A stretch of DNA of 64,000 nt from Aliiroseovarius sp. S1339. Its GTDB lineage: Bacteria > Pseudomonadota > Alphaproteobacteria > Rhodobacterales > Rhodobacteraceae. The DNA lies in contig NZ_JALPQG010000001.1 of assembly GCF_023195695.1 (NCBI RefSeq), forward strand, positions 496,001 to 560,000, written 5' to 3'. The position numbers and the translations under genes are program-made. Position 1 is the stretch's first letter. Each line of letters starts with the position of its first letter. Positions 51,161 to 57,543 of the stretch are shown one piece after another. A model generated the notes under the pieces. That model was not told the origin of the DNA and searched no databases. It was given only the letters and a program-made list of their open reading frames with translations.

Positions 51161-51520
51161 GAGTCTGCTCCGCGTCGTAAACCTTCACGTTGGTCGTGAC
51201 TCGCGACCTGAGCCACGAAAATGGCTGTAACAAACGCCAAGCATTCCGCGTTTTTTTTGAAACTTTCGAAACCGCAGTCAGTCGAGTTTTAGCAAAGATT
51301 GCTGGAAAGATTTCCAAAACTCCTCAATAATCCCTTTAAAATGAAGACGTAACGCGGCAGACCCGCGCCAAATCCAAGAAGATGACGCGCCTTTGCAGCG
51401 ATCACTCCCGCTAACGGAGCCGTGAATTACGCGTTCGTGAATGGAGCCGCCTGCCCCCCACGCTTTACCTTTCCCTTACCGCCCTTGAGCGGTGAGAATA
51501 AAACCCGAAAGGAAAACTTG
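51161..51520. promoter_or_regulatory. Leader and promoter region of the bufferin operon
   Basis: 360 nt without a convincing gene. It should contain the promoter for bufA1. I see an AT-rich stretch at 51240-51345, a near-palindrome GGAAAGATTTCC (51304-51315) and a small ACCGC/GCGGT hairpin (51478-51493) just ahead of the Shine-Dalgarno. No clear sigma-70 box is visible, so an ECF-type sigma factor is possible. Confidence 0.4.
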
Positions 51521-51826
51521 ATGTCCAACAACATGAAAACCGTCGCCGTTCTTGGTGCAGTCTCTGCCGCAGTTGCCGCCAGCGCTGTGCCCGCCTTCGC
51601 TGATGGCGAGCAGGAAAAATGCTTTGGTGTGTCGCTTGCAGGTCAAAACGATTGCGCCGCTGGCCCCGGCACCACCTGCGCAGGGACTTCCACCGTCGAC
51701 TACCAAGGCAACGCTTGGAAACTAGTTCCGGCCGGCACGTGCGAAACCATGGAGGTCACCGACGCTGAAGGCATGATGATGAAGGGCTCGTTGGAGGCTC
51801 TGGATACCAACCTGCCTGCCAGCTAA
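51521..51826 (+). CDS. bufA1: Bufferin-type RiPP precursor (BufA1, DUF2282)
   Basis: A 101-aa secreted precursor. Residues 1-27 form a Sec signal peptide (ending VPAFA before DGE), the rest a small core with four Cys at 34, 45, 53 and 74 in [21 protein letters not shown] and GTCETM, the pattern of DUF2282/BufA1 proteins. In known bufferins, central Cys residues are turned into copper-binding thiooxazoles by the MNIO enzyme before export. ATG 51521 follows AAAGGAAAA. The three partner genes lie directly downstream. The copper role here is inferred from relatives. Confidence 0.88.
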
Positions 51827-51844
51827 ATCTGGTTGCAAATCGCT

Positions 51845-51864
51845 CTGGCCGGTTGTCCGGCCGG
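51845..51864 (+). promoter_or_regulatory. Hairpin between bufA1 and bufB
   Basis: CTGGCCGG (51845-51852), loop TTGT, CCGGCCGG (51857-51864): 8 bp including one G-T pair. No T-run. It lies 18 nt past the bufA1 stop and may keep the precursor mRNA stable or lower enzyme expression relative to the precursor. Confidence 0.6.
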
Positions 51865-51940
51865 AGCCACCATCGCGCCTGACCAGCCTGCGCCCTTTGC
51901 CAAGTCAACCGCCTGACCCGAGCTTTCGATGGAGCTTTCC

Positions 51941-52810
51941 ATGCTTGATATTGCCCATGACAACACGTTGCCCAACGGGGCGGGCGTCGGATACAAACCG
52001 CAGCATTTTGCGGCCCTCATCGACAACCCCGGCACGGTCAGTTGGCTTGAGATTCACGCGGAAAACTACATGGGCGACGGCGGACGTCCGATGGCGCAAC
52101 TGCGCCACTTGGCCGAGCATTTCCCGATTTCGGTGCACGGTGTCGGCCTATCCATCGGTGGTGAAACCCGTTTGGACCCCGAACATCTTGCCCGCCTGAA
52201 GCGGTTGGTCGATTGGCTGAACCCCGCGATGTTTTCCGAACATCTGGCGTGGTCGACCCATGACGGCGCGTTCCTGAACGATCTTTTACCGCTGCCCTAC
52301 ACAACCAACACGCTCACCCGCATCACCACGCATATCAACGAGGTGCAGGATCACCTTGGGCGCAAGATGCTGCTGGAAAACCCGTCGTCTTACCTAGCTT
52401 TCGCTGAAAGCACGTGGTCCGAACCGGATTTCCTGCGCGAAGTCGCGCGGCGCACCGAGTGCGGGCTGCTGCTGGATGTGAACAACGTCTTTGTCTCCGC
52501 GACCAATCTGGACTTTGATCCACGCGCCTATATCGACGCCTATCCGCTTGACTTGGTTGAAGAATTTCACCTTGCCGGCCATGACGAAGATGCCGACGAG
52601 ATGGGTCGCAAGCTGTTGATTGACAGCCACGGCACGCCGGTGGACGAACCCGTCTGGACCCTGTTTGACCACGTGATCGCCCGTGCAGGCGCGCGCCCTG
52701 CCCTTGTGGAATGGGACAATGACGTGCCGGATTGGGACATTCTGGAAGCCGAAGCCGCCCGCGCGACGCGCCACATGGAACCAGCATTGGCCGCGCAGGT
52801 CTCGGCATGA
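51941..52810 (+). CDS. bufB: MNIO-family bufferin-modifying enzyme (BufB, DUF692)
   Basis: A 289-aa TIM-barrel multinuclear non-haem iron oxygenase. The metal-ligand segments appear in order: EIHAENYMGDGG, VHGVGLSIGG, SEHLAW, LLENPSSYL, LLLDVNNVFVS, EFHLAGHDED and DSHGTPVDEPVW. It should oxidise Cys in the BufA1 core in the cytoplasm. I used ATG 51941, placed 7 nt after GGAG; ATG 51929 overlaps that SD. The stop overlaps the bufC start (ATGA). Confidence 0.92.
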   Translation: MLDIAHDNTLPNGAGVGYKPQHFAALIDNPGTVSWLEIHAENYMGDGGRPMAQLRHLAEHFPISVHGVGLSIGGETRLDPEHLARLKRLVDWLNPAMFSEHLAWSTHDGAFLNDLLPLPYTTNTLTRITTHINEVQDHLGRKMLLENPSSYLAFAESTWSEPDFLREVARRTECGLLLDVNNVFVSATNLDFDPRAYIDAYPLDLVEEFHLAGHDEDADEMGRKLLIDSHGTPVDEPVWTLFDHVIARAGARPALVEWDNDVPDWDILEAEAARATRHMEPALAAQVSA

Positions 52811-53595
52811 CGCGCGCTGAAACCCTTCCCCGCACAGGTGATGTGACCGTGACGCAAACGGCGTTTCGCAAAGCCCTGCTTGACCCACAACAGGCGGTGC
52901 CGGACGGGCTGACCAACCCCGACGGTCAACAAGTCTCCAAGCGGTTCTCGGTCTATCGCAACAACGTGGTGCATGGCTTATCCGAGGCGATGCTGACGGG
53001 ATTCCCCGTGCTTGCCAAATTGGTCGGCGACGAATTTTTTCGCGAAATGGCAAAGGTTTACCTACGCATTCACCCGCCAACCTCGCCCCTTATGATGCAT
53101 TACGGGGCCGCCCTTCCGGGGTTTCTGGAAAGCTTCCCCGGCACGCTTCATCTGAAATACCTGCCCGATGTGGCGCGGTTGGAACTGACCCTGCGGCGTG
53201 CCTATCACGCGGGCGACGCGGCACCTGTTAACCCTGATGACCTGACCAAGCTGGACCATCACGCATTAATGGCGACGCGGCTTCAGATGTCGCCTGCCAG
53301 CGAGGTTCTGATCACCAAATGGCCGGCAAAGGCGATCTGGGATTTCAATATGAAGGGTGGGCCACAGCCCAAAGGCGGAGGTGAGACCATCCTGATCAGC
53401 CGCATCGGCTTTGATCCCGTGGCCGAGCTGCTGCCCGATGGTGGCGCGCGTTTCGTCAATTCCCTGATCAAAGGTTGCAGCTTTGGCACTGCGCTGGGGC
53501 TTGCCACGGCAGACACACCAGATTTCGATCTGACAGCCACTCTGGGCGTTCTGATCGCAACCCACTCTATCATCGGCATCGACAAACCAGACTGA
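52807..53595 (+). CDS. bufC: Bufferin partner protein BufC (DUF2063)
   Basis: A 262-aa protein. The N-terminal DUF2063 domain (about 17-110; QTAFRKALLDPQQAVPDGL, RFSVYRNNVVHGLSEAMLTGFPVLAKLVG) is thought to bind the precursor leader and bring it to BufB; the C-terminal half (with LPDVARLELTLRRAYHA) is less conserved. It starts inside the bufB stop codon and ends 20 nt before the DoxX gene. Confidence 0.9.
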   Translation: MTRAETLPRTGDVTVTQTAFRKALLDPQQAVPDGLTNPDGQQVSKRFSVYRNNVVHGLSEAMLTGFPVLAKLVGDEFFREMAKVYLRIHPPTSPLMMHYGAALPGFLESFPGTLHLKYLPDVARLELTLRRAYHAGDAAPVNPDDLTKLDHHALMATRLQMSPASEVLITKWPAKAIWDFNMKGGPQPKGGGETILISRIGFDPVAELLPDGGARFVNSLIKGCSFGTALGLATADTPDFDLTATLGVLIATHSIIGIDKPD

Positions 53596-53615
53596 ACACT
53601 CGGAAGGATACCGCC

Positions 53616-54164
53616 ATGCGCGCCTTGGCAAATCTCCATAACCCGCTTGCCGATTTGGCCGAGCGGTTGGCCCCGGCCACCCTGCCCACGCTGGCCCGCT
53701 TTACCTTTGCCGCGACTTTGCTTGGGTATTTCTGGGCCTCGGCGCTGACCAAAACGGGCGACGGCCTGCTTGGCGTTTTCCAACCCAGCCTTGGCGCCTA
53801 TGCGCAGATTTTCCCCAAAGCGATGGAGGCCGCATCGTATGACATCGGGCAGCTTGGCATGTTCCACTGGGCCGTGGTCGTCGCGGGCACCTTGGCCGAA
53901 TTCGCCTTGCCGCTATTGATCACCATCGGATTGCTGACCCGCCTAACCGCCCTTGGGATGATCGGCTTTGTCGTCGTGCAAAGCCTGACCGACCTTTTTG
54001 GCCACGGCGGGATTGAGCAGCCCGAAACGCTGGGCGCATGGTTTGACCGCATTCCAGACAGCGTGATTTTGGATCAACGCCTGTTCTGGATGGTTTTGCT
54101 GGTGACCTTGGTGCTGAAAGGCGCAGGCCCGCTGTCTGTCGACCGACTGCTGAACATCCGCTGA
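53616..54164 (+). CDS. DoxX-family membrane protein of the bufferin operon (BufD-like)
   Basis: A 182-aa inner-membrane protein with four hydrophobic helices. It carries the DoxX pattern (LPTLARFTFAATLLGYFWASALTK, and LTRLTALGMIGFVVVQSLTDLFGHGG). DoxX proteins recur as the last gene of bufferin operons (BufD); the role may be redox or quinone-linked. GGAAGG precedes ATG 53616. The operon ends here, meeting a convergent gene 9 nt on. Confidence 0.87.
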   Translation: MRALANLHNPLADLAERLAPATLPTLARFTFAATLLGYFWASALTKTGDGLLGVFQPSLGAYAQIFPKAMEAASYDIGQLGMFHWAVVVAGTLAEFALPLLITIGLLTRLTALGMIGFVVVQSLTDLFGHGGIEQPETLGAWFDRIPDSVILDQRLFWMVLLVTLVLKGAGPLSVDRLLNIR

Positions 54165-54172
54165 CGCGGACC

Positions 54173-54529
54173 CTAGTGCGGGTCGGGCTTCACAGCGACC
54201 AGAGCGAGCAGCCCGCCCAGACCTGCCAGCGCGATTGGGAACATGGTGAACACGCCATAGCCAAAAGCGAAATACATGCCCGCGGCGGACAGAAGCAGTA
54301 AAATGCCCCCTACCTGCGCGGCAGAGCGCGCCATCGCACCACCCGCCAGCGCCAGAACCGGCGCGATCAGGGCAAAGGCGCGGATGCGGCCCGGATTTTC
54401 CACCTGTTCGGCAAGATCAGGCAATTCACCCATCCGCGCGATCACTTCGGTATAGCCATAGCCGAAAAACCCAACGATCATGCCCCAAATCCCGGCGATG
54501 ATCCCCAAAACCAATGCAGCGTTGCGCAT
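54173..54529 (-). CDS. Small hydrophobic protein, function unknown
   Basis: A 118-aa protein with four membrane helices (for example NAALVLGIIAGIWGMIVGFFGYGY, ALIAPVLALAGGAMA, LLLLSAAGMYFAFGYGV). It resembles the DUF4064-type small membrane proteins. GAGG precedes ATG 54529. It follows the ArsC/Spx-like gene by 34 nt on the same strand. Confidence 0.72.
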   Translation of the reverse strand: MRNAALVLGIIAGIWGMIVGFFGYGYTEVIARMGELPDLAEQVENPGRIRAFALIAPVLALAGGAMARSAAQVGGILLLLSAAGMYFAFGYGVFTMFPIALAGLGGLLALVAVKPDPH

Positions 54530-54563
54530 GCAGATACCTCCTACTTTCCGAACAGATAGGCGC

Positions 54564-54899
54564 TTAAGGCGCGCGCTCCAACCACATGTCACGCGTTTTT
54601 GCGTCCCAACCCAACGTCAACTTGGCCCCGTCCTCAATCACCGGGCGTTTCATCAGGGTCGGGTGTTGGGCCAATAATGCGACCGGATCGCCCGCCCGGT
54701 CGCCGTCCGACAACCCGCGCCATGTGGTGGAGCGTTTGTTGACCAACGCCTCGTCAAACGCCACGTGGAAGCGCGCCAGATCGGCCGGGTCCACCCCGTC
54801 AGCGCGCACATCGACGTAATCGACGTCAAAGCCCGCCGCCTCTAACGCCTTCACTGCCTTGCGGCATGTGTCACAGTTTTTCAGCCCCCAAACGCGCAT
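54564..54899 (-). CDS. ArsC/Spx-family thioredoxin-fold protein
   Basis: A 111-aa protein of the ArsC/YffB group: MRVWGLKNCDTCRKAVKALEAAGF carries a CxxC, then the RPVIEDGAKLTLGW region. Real arsenate reductases use the first Cys with three Arg; the family also includes glutathione-dependent YffB proteins of unknown role. No ars genes are near, so arsenate reduction is not assured. Confidence 0.85.
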   Translation of the reverse strand: MRVWGLKNCDTCRKAVKALEAAGFDVDYVDVRADGVDPADLARFHVAFDEALVNKRSTTWRGLSDGDRAGDPVALLAQHPTLMKRPVIEDGAKLTLGWDAKTRDMWLERAP

Positions 54900-55158
54900 G
54901 TCATCCCCCAGAAATAAGCGGCCCATCAGATGCGACCCGAAGCCCGTTATGGCCCGAACAGACGGGATAGGGAAGCACGCAAAATGATGCCAATATCCAC
55001 GCGCCGCAAAGGAAAACCTTGCATTTCCTCATATAACGCCCAAATCTTATACTGTTAGACAGACCTATCTACCGCCTCCTTTTATGCAGTCGGACGATAC
55101 CTGACTGCACGACGAAGGCCCCGCACACTGCGGGCGCTCATATTAAGGAGAGACGGAA

Positions 55159-55789: not shown

Positions 55790-56638
55790 TCACAGTTTGT
55801 TTAGGTCAATATCAAATCCTGCGGCTTTCAACTCCTTTCCAAGTATAGTCTGCCAAGCTCCTGCCGAGTCAATTTCAGTGTAAACGACCCCAAAAATGTC
55901 AGAAGGTGTTTCGACACCCTGAGACTTTAAGACACAGGTACCCTGCCTTTTGAGACGGGCAAAGAAATACCCAAGCTCAAGAACAACATTCTGGCGAGCT
56001 CTGGGGCAGTAATCTCCTTCTGAAGCAGAATCGAGAGAAGCACCCATATCATCTGCCGTCATTAGAACTACGGCGAAGTCGACATCTGCATTCGATTCAA
56101 ACTTTTCGATGATAGTCCTACCTTTGTTAGGTTGTTCCCTAAGAACAATTGGTTTGAGTTGGAGCCTTTCCAACAATCGCGTCACTTGATGAAGGATTGC
56201 ATCATCATGACCATGCACCACAAAAACCCTATTCGAGGCTGGCTTTCGGTTTGGATCTTCGAGAAAATGAGATGAAGTGGAGTTTCTAGCGTCTGTGCCG
56301 TCCGCCACTGTCAAAGCATCATTAGGACTGTTTTTGTTTAGATGCTTAGATCCGAAAGTCTTAAGCACTCTTTGCACTCTAAGAATCTTGGTCTGGAGCT
56401 GTGCGCGGTCGCCATTGTTAAACCCGTGATATCTGTCTGAATCGTCATTCAGTTCACGTATCTTTATTGCTAGTTGGTTAGCTGGAATTGTCTCACTATA
56501 GTCTGCCAAATCAACGAGAAGCTCGGTTAATCGCTGACTTTCCTCTACGAATTCGCGTGAACCGTACCCATCTTGTCGTTTAACTTGAACAACTTGAAGC
56601 AATTCATCTAAATCATCCCAAAAAACCTCCAGACTCAT
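55790..56638 (-). CDS. TIR-domain nucleotide-binding protein (Cap12/Pycsar-effector-like)
   Basis: A 282-aa protein. Residues 1-~110 are helical and charged; about 135-282 are a TIR-like fold of PF10137 type: [47 protein letters not shown], and NVVLELGYF, whose Glu221 is the candidate NADase catalytic residue. Related domains act as NAD-depleting effectors of CBASS and Pycsar. No cyclase or sensor gene is in the window. It is visibly AT-richer than neighbours. Its ATG overlaps the thyX stop by ATGA. Confidence 0.85.
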
Positions 56639-57543
56639 CCCTTCAACTCCGCCTCAAACTCGCGCCACTCCCCCTTCGACATGCCGGAGTTCTCCTGTGT
56701 AACCTCTTCGCCTTTCAGCATGCGGCGCACGCAGTCCATGGCGCGGCCTGACAGGTTGGCGCCGCCCAGACGGTAATCCTCGAACGCGCCGTATGCGGCG
56801 GGGACCCAGTCGGCGACGATGTTGCAGATCGCATCGGCATAGACGCGGATTTCGTATTGGGCGTGGTGGTCGGCGCGCAGGCGCAGGAAGTGGAACAGGT
56901 TGTGCAGGTCCACCTTCCAATACCATTGGGTATAGATGTTGGCGGGCAGATTCATCCGCGCGAGTTCCCGCGCCAGCCCCTGTTGGCCATCATCCGAGAT
57001 CATCTGTTCATAGTGATCATAGGCGCGGTTGCTGTCGGTTTTCAGAATTTCCAGCACGCGCGCGGCTTCCTCGCCTTCCAGCGCGGCGCCGCGGCCCTGA
57101 TTGTTCACCACCGACTGTGCGGCGACGTGTTCGGGCGCGGGGATATAGAACTCGCGGTCCAAGATCGAATAGCGCGCCGAATATTCGTTCACATTCGCGG
57201 TCCGGTGGCGGATCCACTGGCGGGCCACGAAGACGGGCAGTTTGACGTGCAGCTTGATCTCGCACATCTCAAACGGGGTCGAATGCCAGTGGCGCATCAG
57301 GTAGCGGATCAGGCCCGCGTCATTCTGCACGCTTTTGGTGCCCTTGCCGTAGCTGACCCGCGCGGCCTGACAAATCGCGGCGTCGTCGCCCATATAGTCG
57401 ATGACGCGGACAAAGCCGTGGTCCAGCACTTCATGCGCGGTATAGAGGTGCTTTTCCATGCCGGGGCTGACCGCCCGCAGGGTGGGTTGCGGCGTGCTGC
57501 GTTGCTCTTCGATTTCGCGGATCTGCTCGGGGCTCAGGGGCAT
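56635..57543 (-). CDS. thyX: FAD-dependent thymidylate synthase
   Basis: A 302-aa flavoenzyme making dTMP from dUMP with methylene-THF and NADPH. The ThyX signature [15 protein letters not shown] lies at 112-126. It is normal-GC chromosomal DNA. The stop overlaps the TIR gene start (56635-56638), which would couple their translation. No thyA is seen. Confidence 0.95.

Follow-up and report, generated by a model that had tools for sequence, protein, structure and literature searches.

A bufferin operon of the marine bacterium Aliiroseovarius sp. S1339 (genome size 3.54 Mb, 99.99 % complete) is preceded by a conserved tandem palindrome which probably serves its control. The operon, bufA1-bufB-bufC-doxX, occupies positions 51521–54164 of a 64,000 nt stretch of DNA (contig NZ_JALPQG010000001.1, positions 496,001 to 560,000), hereafter the window. 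While the content of the operon is known, its promoter is new as judged from sequence comparison, i.e. a conserved and nearly buf-exclusive tandem palindrome replaces the sigma-F control described for such operons. We consider it probable that the operon is switched by a regulator acting on the tandem palindromes of a weak sigma-70 promoter, without sigma-F/NrsF. This reading builds on four computed results: the identity of the genes, the conservation of the element, its almost exclusive link to buf among strong matches and the mutual exclusion between the tandem form and sigF-nrsF.

Bufferins make up the largest families of peptides produced by MNIO enzymes and sequester periplasmic copper (PMC12452194; this and the other sources cited are drawn on in part). 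The core of a Buf1 cluster consists of a precursor, an MNIO enzyme, a DUF2063 protein and a DoxX protein, and genes for a sigma factor and NrsF occur in such clusters; in the precursor, the central Cys residues are modified, while a disulphide joins the outer two (PMC12452194). Bufferins are counted among the thiooxazole captophorins, relatives within which bind copper (PMC13097082).

The tandem palindrome upstream of bufA

Two palindromes of the form TnACGN4CGTGA, offset by 15 bp, lie at 51412–51440 upstream of bufA, i.e. a distal copy, TAACGGAGCCGTGA (51412–51425), and a proximal copy, TTACGCGTTCGTGA (51427–51440), neither assigned to a strand. Both emerged from motif finding and the logo, the proximal one also from the comparison with loci that carry sigF-nrsF (sigF-type loci). 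An extra half-site, TCAC (51402–51405, + strand), corresponds to the conserved TnAC at logo position −10. Downstream, a weak sigma-70-like promoter is predicted at 51442–51471 on the + strand (TGGAGC at 51442–51447, a spacer of 18 bp and TACCTT at 51466–51471), with a predicted transcription start near 51478; a generic promoter scan did not report the promoter at 51442–51471.

Neighbourhood and upstream counts were taken from the best 80 of at least 594 matched stretches. One of these loci (L079) has no bufA and was left out, and the upstream set consisted of 79 loci and the window, i.e. 80 regions. Motif finding in 65 non-redundant upstream regions returned GACGnnnnCGTGAnnCACGnnCTCGTGA, with a posterior of 1.0 in 58 of them. 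At least 14 of the 19 specified bases of GACGN4CGTGAN2CACGN3TCGTGA were present in 69 of the 80 regions, including the window, versus 3 of 400 shuffled sequences, and the element starts 75–136 bp, mostly 98–120 bp, before the start codon. The logo, drawn from 58 aligned loci, shows TnACG-N4-CGTnA twice at a 15 bp offset with a further TnAC 10 bp upstream, a nearly invariant T two bases downstream of the element, and weak blocks, T[TG][GC]A at the place of a −35 and TAnnnT 17–18 bp further on, which we infer to be a sigma-70-type promoter. The commonest upstream hexamer, GTAACA, was considered as the −35 of an extracytoplasmic function (ECF) sigma factor and dropped; in the loci inspected it is often the thrS stop (CTG TAA C...). 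Two related loci, L221 (genome G100) and L225 (genome G007), have two bufA copies in a row under a shared operator; in G100, the second of these precursors is diverged. The element score of L225 is low because the stretch scored precedes the second copy.

The palindromes could also form short hairpins and might thus act as paired RNA structures in the 5′ leader, similar to a riboswitch. We regard this as highly improbable and rejected it, given that covariation was no better than in shuffled alignments; one pair per helix was unpaired in 30/37 and 31/37 sequences, the sole Rfam match in the window was a distant tRNA, and a −10-like block follows downstream at a nearly fixed distance.

The specificity of the element was assessed in a family sample (GTDB Rhodobacteraceae) of 120 genomes, one per genus, and, for the exact pattern, in 149 family genomes. 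ACGN4CGTGAN2CACGN4CGTGA was found in 14 of the 149, in all 14 before bufA, while the reversed control gave none; the site in the window is one base off this exact form. For a sequence model, R1, 37 of the 58 aligned sites were selected by hand, with near-copies and some diverged rows (among them L026, L028 and L034) omitted. With 150 of 815 first-look candidates scored, R1 matched the S1339 genome once (E 1.5e-10), with no other match up to E 10. With up to 40 candidates scored per genome, 68 of the 120 had a match at E<=0.1. All 53 matches at E<=1e-3 were located at buf operons: 51 no more than 700 bp upstream of bufA, one in G081, where such a site was read in reverse, and one in G063, between bufA and bufB. 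A further 25 weaker matches did not lie upstream of bufA, two of them being buf sites matched in reverse (G071, G100) and 23 lying elsewhere. With two mismatches, the tandem pattern gave 10 matches in the S1339 genome versus 4 for the control, two of the 10 being the operator itself on either strand. A class-wide search with one mismatch gave matches in 16 and control matches in 6 of 385 genomes, of which only the two matches from the same family were at bufA. The locus of G063 (L200) has its own arrangement: a terminator-like hairpin behind bufA is followed by a strong tandem operator directly before bufB, and a weaker copy precedes bufA.

Relationship to sigma-F/NrsF control

The earlier note, made from the sequence alone, had seen no adjacent sigma/anti-sigma pair and had suggested that control may differ from the described sigma-F/NrsF cases. 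The first point holds, and comparison within the family supports the second. No sigF-nrsF is linked to bufA at the locus in the window (L219), a search of the whole S1339 genome for NrsF (PF06532) gave no match, and none of its 13 matches to sigma-70 region 4.2 is near buf. Across the 120 family genomes, DUF2282 was found in 85 and NrsF in 17. When the 85 genomes with bufA were tallied at one threshold, counting NrsF as linked within 4 kb of bufA, 54 had the element, 12 had linked NrsF, none had both and 19 had neither (Fisher p 1.1e-6, kinship ignored). Inspection of the loci changed these numbers to 59 with the element, 13 of the sigF-type, 12 with neither and one untestable, i.e. G098, whose contig begins at bufA. 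Here, G118 was reassigned to the sigF-type and G063, G036, G058, G064 and G080 to the element (14.7–24.4 bits versus a shuffle maximum of 4.9), while G017, borderline at 5.6 bits versus the same maximum, was kept as neither. At least 71 of the 85 bufferin genomes of the family sample therefore have no sigF-nrsF at the locus.

The sigma-F promoter sequence has been given as GTAACC-N16-CGAA (PMC3511200). A relaxed sigma-F-like pattern, GTAAC-N15-18-CG, was present in 12 of the 13 sigF-type loci versus 1 of 24 others (17 without a called element and 7 with one), and the strict pattern, GTAAC-N15-17-CGAA, in 9 of 13 versus 0 of 24. Neither form occurred in the region tested at the window's locus, where a looser pattern was seen once, at −294 (GTAAC...CGTT).

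The two promoter types share a palindrome. In 10 of the 12 usable sigF-type promoters of the family, a single CAC-N5-CG(T/C)G(A/T), a pattern defined after these promoters had been inspected, lies 5–6 bp ahead of the sigma-F −35 (distances of 3–7 bp were tested), compared with a background rate at other positions of 0.3 % within and 0.5 % outside the family. The distance from palindrome to −10 is also similar, i.e. 24–25 bp in the tandem type and around 26–27 bp in the sigma-F type. We propose that the proximal palindrome of the window is the counterpart of this single copy. Since most family sigma-F buf promoters carry one palindrome by the −35, the promoter type of the window probably arose by loss of sigF-nrsF, a change of the core promoter and the gain of a second palindrome. 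In the simplest history, sigma-F with one palindrome was probably ancestral and the loss of sigF-nrsF and the doubling of the palindrome came later.

The same positions bear on whether the palindromes bind a repressor instead, e.g. of the TetR or XRE type, which would block the sigma-70 promoter and be released by copper. Tandem palindromes beside a −35 are also typical of repressor sites, and the element abuts the predicted −35. However, it lies entirely upstream of that −35, the core promoter seems too weak to need repression, and most sigma-F-type promoters of the family also have a copy upstream of the −35, all of which makes a repressor quite unlikely.

An alternative to any promoter rewiring is that two buf lineages each inherited their own control region, which would by itself explain the exclusion. 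In a BufB tree of 74 rows picked from the fetched loci, 11 of the 13 sigF-type rows indeed cluster in one part, apart from the thrS-linked lineage. The remaining two do not fit this division. G010 is located next to thrS and groups with the thrS-linked loci, although it has sigF-nrsF together with a sigma-F promoter, and G039, also sigF-type, branches near the base of the thrS-linked part; the forks concerned are not strongly supported. The DoxX of both is of the long type, as in the thrS-linked and related loci (182 aa in the window), and not of the short one of 142–161 aa found in 10 family sigF-type loci. Together with the palindrome common to both promoter types at a similar distance from the −10, this speaks for rewiring and makes two separately inherited control regions unlikely. 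The starred branches of the tree require at least two changes of the sigF label.

Several observations weigh against a switch at the tandem palindromes that takes the place of sigma-F/NrsF. Twelve of the 85 genomes have bufA and neither form of control. G118 has a palindrome of 11.1 bits beside sigF-nrsF; as this is a single palindrome, with no recognised sigma-F −35, the exclusion concerns the tandem form. Outside the family, 30 NrsF loci were fetched, of which 15 hold bufA and 14 were usable, and 11 of these 14 sigma-F buf promoters have no palindrome (3/14 with). The BufB tree was rooted at its midpoint, and its key forks are weakly supported (81–86 % bootstrap, none starred). The −35 and −10 of the window each match the sigma-70 consensus at three of six positions, and an activator is therefore likely needed. 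No regulator besides sigF-nrsF was recognised by eye, without a family scan, in the protein clusters present in at least three of 39 buf loci, in which comparison the large clusters merge overlapping reading frames; the regulator is therefore probably unlinked. Finally, single copies of the palindrome show no enrichment in the S1339 genome (54 versus 56 control sites), and the 23 weak R1 matches away from buf (E 0.0014–0.092) are about twice the nominal 12, so that, with limited candidate scoring, weak further targets are possible.

The last points touch on another explanation, namely binding of the element by a global response regulator, e.g. of the OmpR family, which answers envelope or metal stress and has degenerate sites elsewhere. 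The excess of weak matches in the 120 genomes would fit, as would the lack of a recognised linked regulator and the extra TnAC half-site 10 bp upstream, which lends the element a direct-repeat flavour. On the other hand, R1 found no second site in the S1339 genome among the candidates scored, single palindromes are not enriched there, and no match at E<=1e-3 lies away from buf. We therefore regard a global regulator as somewhat doubtful.

In the reading we prefer, a putative unlinked DNA-binding protein, probably an activator, would bind the tandem palindromes abutting the −35. It is tempting to speculate further that an undescribed and unlinked regulator, perhaps a dedicated copper sensor, acts at the palindrome and co-controls buf in several alphaproteobacterial families, jointly with sigma-F in loci that have sigF-nrsF and alone, via the doubled site on a sigma-70-type promoter, in roseobacters like S1339; to this tentative extension we give slightly less than an even chance.

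Genes of the operon and their setting

According to its sequence, the locus is a complete Buf1 (DUF2282) bufferin operon of ordinary content, and the analysis upheld what the earlier note had claimed for its genes, i.e. a complete bufA1-bufB-bufC-doxX operon with a four-Cys DUF2282 precursor, an MNIO enzyme, a DUF2063 partner and a DoxX protein. All four genes are open frames on the + strand. The gene bufA1 (51521–51826) encodes the DUF2282 bufferin precursor of 101 aa (PF10048, 89.5 bits, well above the cut-off of 22.4), the only DUF2282 gene of the genome. Like other Buf1 precursors, BufA has four conserved Cys residues (C34, C45, C53 and C74). By eye, its N-terminus resembles a signal peptide, with Lys, a hydrophobic stretch and AFA/D. 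At the other end (51785–51823), BufA has the tail resembling GSLExLxRDLPA often seen in bufferins of the family, while a shorter end (GSLEPIKM and similar) is seen in six sigF-type precursors; the tail may serve for recognition or as a follower element.

Adjoining the precursor gene, bufB (51929–52810, + strand) encodes an MNIO protein (PF05114, 348.5 bits, cut-off 25) of the bufferin type expected in Buf1, as its NCBIfam match is NF050167, ‘MNIO family bufferin maturase’ (377.3 bits, cut-off 310). An alternative start at 51941 has GGAG shortly upstream and may be the true start instead of 51929. BufB can be aligned with the solved MNIO-family chains 3bww and 7dz9 via conserved His, Glu, Asp and Asn stretches, which we take to be the metal-ligand positions of MNIO enzymes. 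The following gene, bufC (52807–53595, + strand), overlaps bufB by ATGA and encodes a DUF2063 plus RRE-type partner (PME-type 1; PF09836, 85.9 bits, cut-off 27.2), again as in Buf1, of 262 aa (mostly 250–260 aa in this type). At the sequence level, BufC matched no PDB chain, and similarity was detected by fold comparison alone: an AlphaFold2 model made with 24 aligned sequences (mean pLDDT 92.4) matched 8hi7_A of the TglHI entry best in a Foldseek search of the PDB (E 5.3e-6), followed by 3dee, i.e. NGO1945 (E 3.3e-5). TglI (8hi7) and NGO1945 (3dee) are both MNIO partner proteins (PMC12452194). The last gene, doxX (53616–54164, + strand), supplies the DoxX-like membrane protein of the Buf1 core (182 aa); at 21.8 bits it falls 1.8 under the Pfam cut-off of 23.6, while 32 of the 33 members of the orthologue alignment, including the protein itself, match at E<=0.001.

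By analogy with described bufferins, BufA would be made with a Sec signal, and BufB, as an MNIO iron enzyme, together with its RRE partner BufC would turn the central Cys residues into thiooxazoles by oxidation, C45 and C53 being the likeliest targets. The mature product would be exported and bind excess copper in the periplasm, with DoxX presumably assisting.

Between bufA and bufB, a hairpin with an 11 bp stem and a 4 nt loop lies at 51842–51867 (+ strand). It is a candidate attenuator or mRNA-end stabiliser and probably holds the level of precursor mRNA above that of enzyme mRNA. A strong hairpin of variable sequence recurs at this place, the best local fold averaging −24.3 versus −13.7 kcal/mol for shuffles in the 72 of 79 loci that were measurable, a contrast somewhat flattered by the use of single-base shuffles and by their coarser scanning. 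The fold was under its own shuffle mean in 70 of the 72 loci, the exceptions being L062 and L089, and the bufA-bufB gap is shorter than 20 nt in seven loci. In the window, the fold of the entire gap is not significantly stronger than that of dinucleotide shuffles (z −1.37).

The 80 related loci, some of which run to contig ends, repeat the gene order thrS - bufA - bufB - bufC - doxX - (small membrane protein) - arsC (thrS 76, bufA 79, bufB 80, bufC 80, doxX 79, membrane protein 67 and arsC 76), and this recurrence of the gene set indicates that the operon is not a chance arrangement. The closest relative among the matches listed is another Aliiroseovarius record (L015), with a 99 % identical BufB. 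The small membrane protein (a weak DUF4064 match, under the cut-off) and the ArsC-family protein are encoded at 54173–54926 on the − strand, convergent to doxX, and thus lie outside the operon, yet they recur in 67 and 76 of the 80 loci, respectively.

Further downstream, at 55790–57543 on the − strand, there is a gene for a CAP12/Pycsar-type TIR protein (PF10137, 123.5 bits; PADLOC PDC-S35), which shares four bases with the end of thyX (Thy1), an overlap suggestive of co-translation. Among the ten open reading frames scanned, none encoded a nucleotide cyclase.

Comparison with known systems

The control of buf named in the literature is sigma-F with NrsF (PMC12452194, in the sections drawn on here), while most bufferin genomes of the family have no such system at the locus. 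In a limited search, largely of titles and the starts of abstracts, no description of control by the tandem element was found. As the element is short and nearly exclusive to buf, it offers a handle to find the regulator and hence the signal, copper or another stress, that calls for bufferins. If the tentative extension above is true, the locus would represent a natural swap of the sigma-factor class of a promoter with the operator kept. As a case of probable promoter rewiring, it is also compact and open to testing.

Among other MNIO systems, the EGKCG-type captophorins (oxazolin HvfABC and fontiphorin) likewise combine an MNIO enzyme with a DUF2063/RRE partner, and their characterised cases have thiooxazoles and bind copper (PMC13097082). 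In contrast, the precursor in the window is a four-Cys DUF2282 protein without EGKCG repeats, and the HvfB model gives BufB 236.4 bits, below its cut-off of 360. The likeness to TglHI (3-thiaglutamate) and MbnBC (methanobactin) is at the level of family and fold only, i.e. the MNIO family and a BufC fold like that of the TglHI partner chain, whereas their precursors and products are different.

The nearest known system is the Caulobacter Buf1 operon CC3254–CC3257 with sigma-F and NrsF, which has the same precursor-MNIO-DUF2063-DoxX core, a signal-peptide-like start and four Cys residues. In most sigF-type loci of the window's own family, too, a palindrome adjoins the promoter. The window differs from the type as described by its lack of an adjacent sigF-nrsF and of any NrsF match in the genome, and by a DoxX of 182 aa, whereas 10 of the family's sigF-type loci have one of 142–161 aa. 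Instead of GTAAC-N16-CGAA, the bufA of the window is preceded by two tandem palindromes and a sigma-70-like core.

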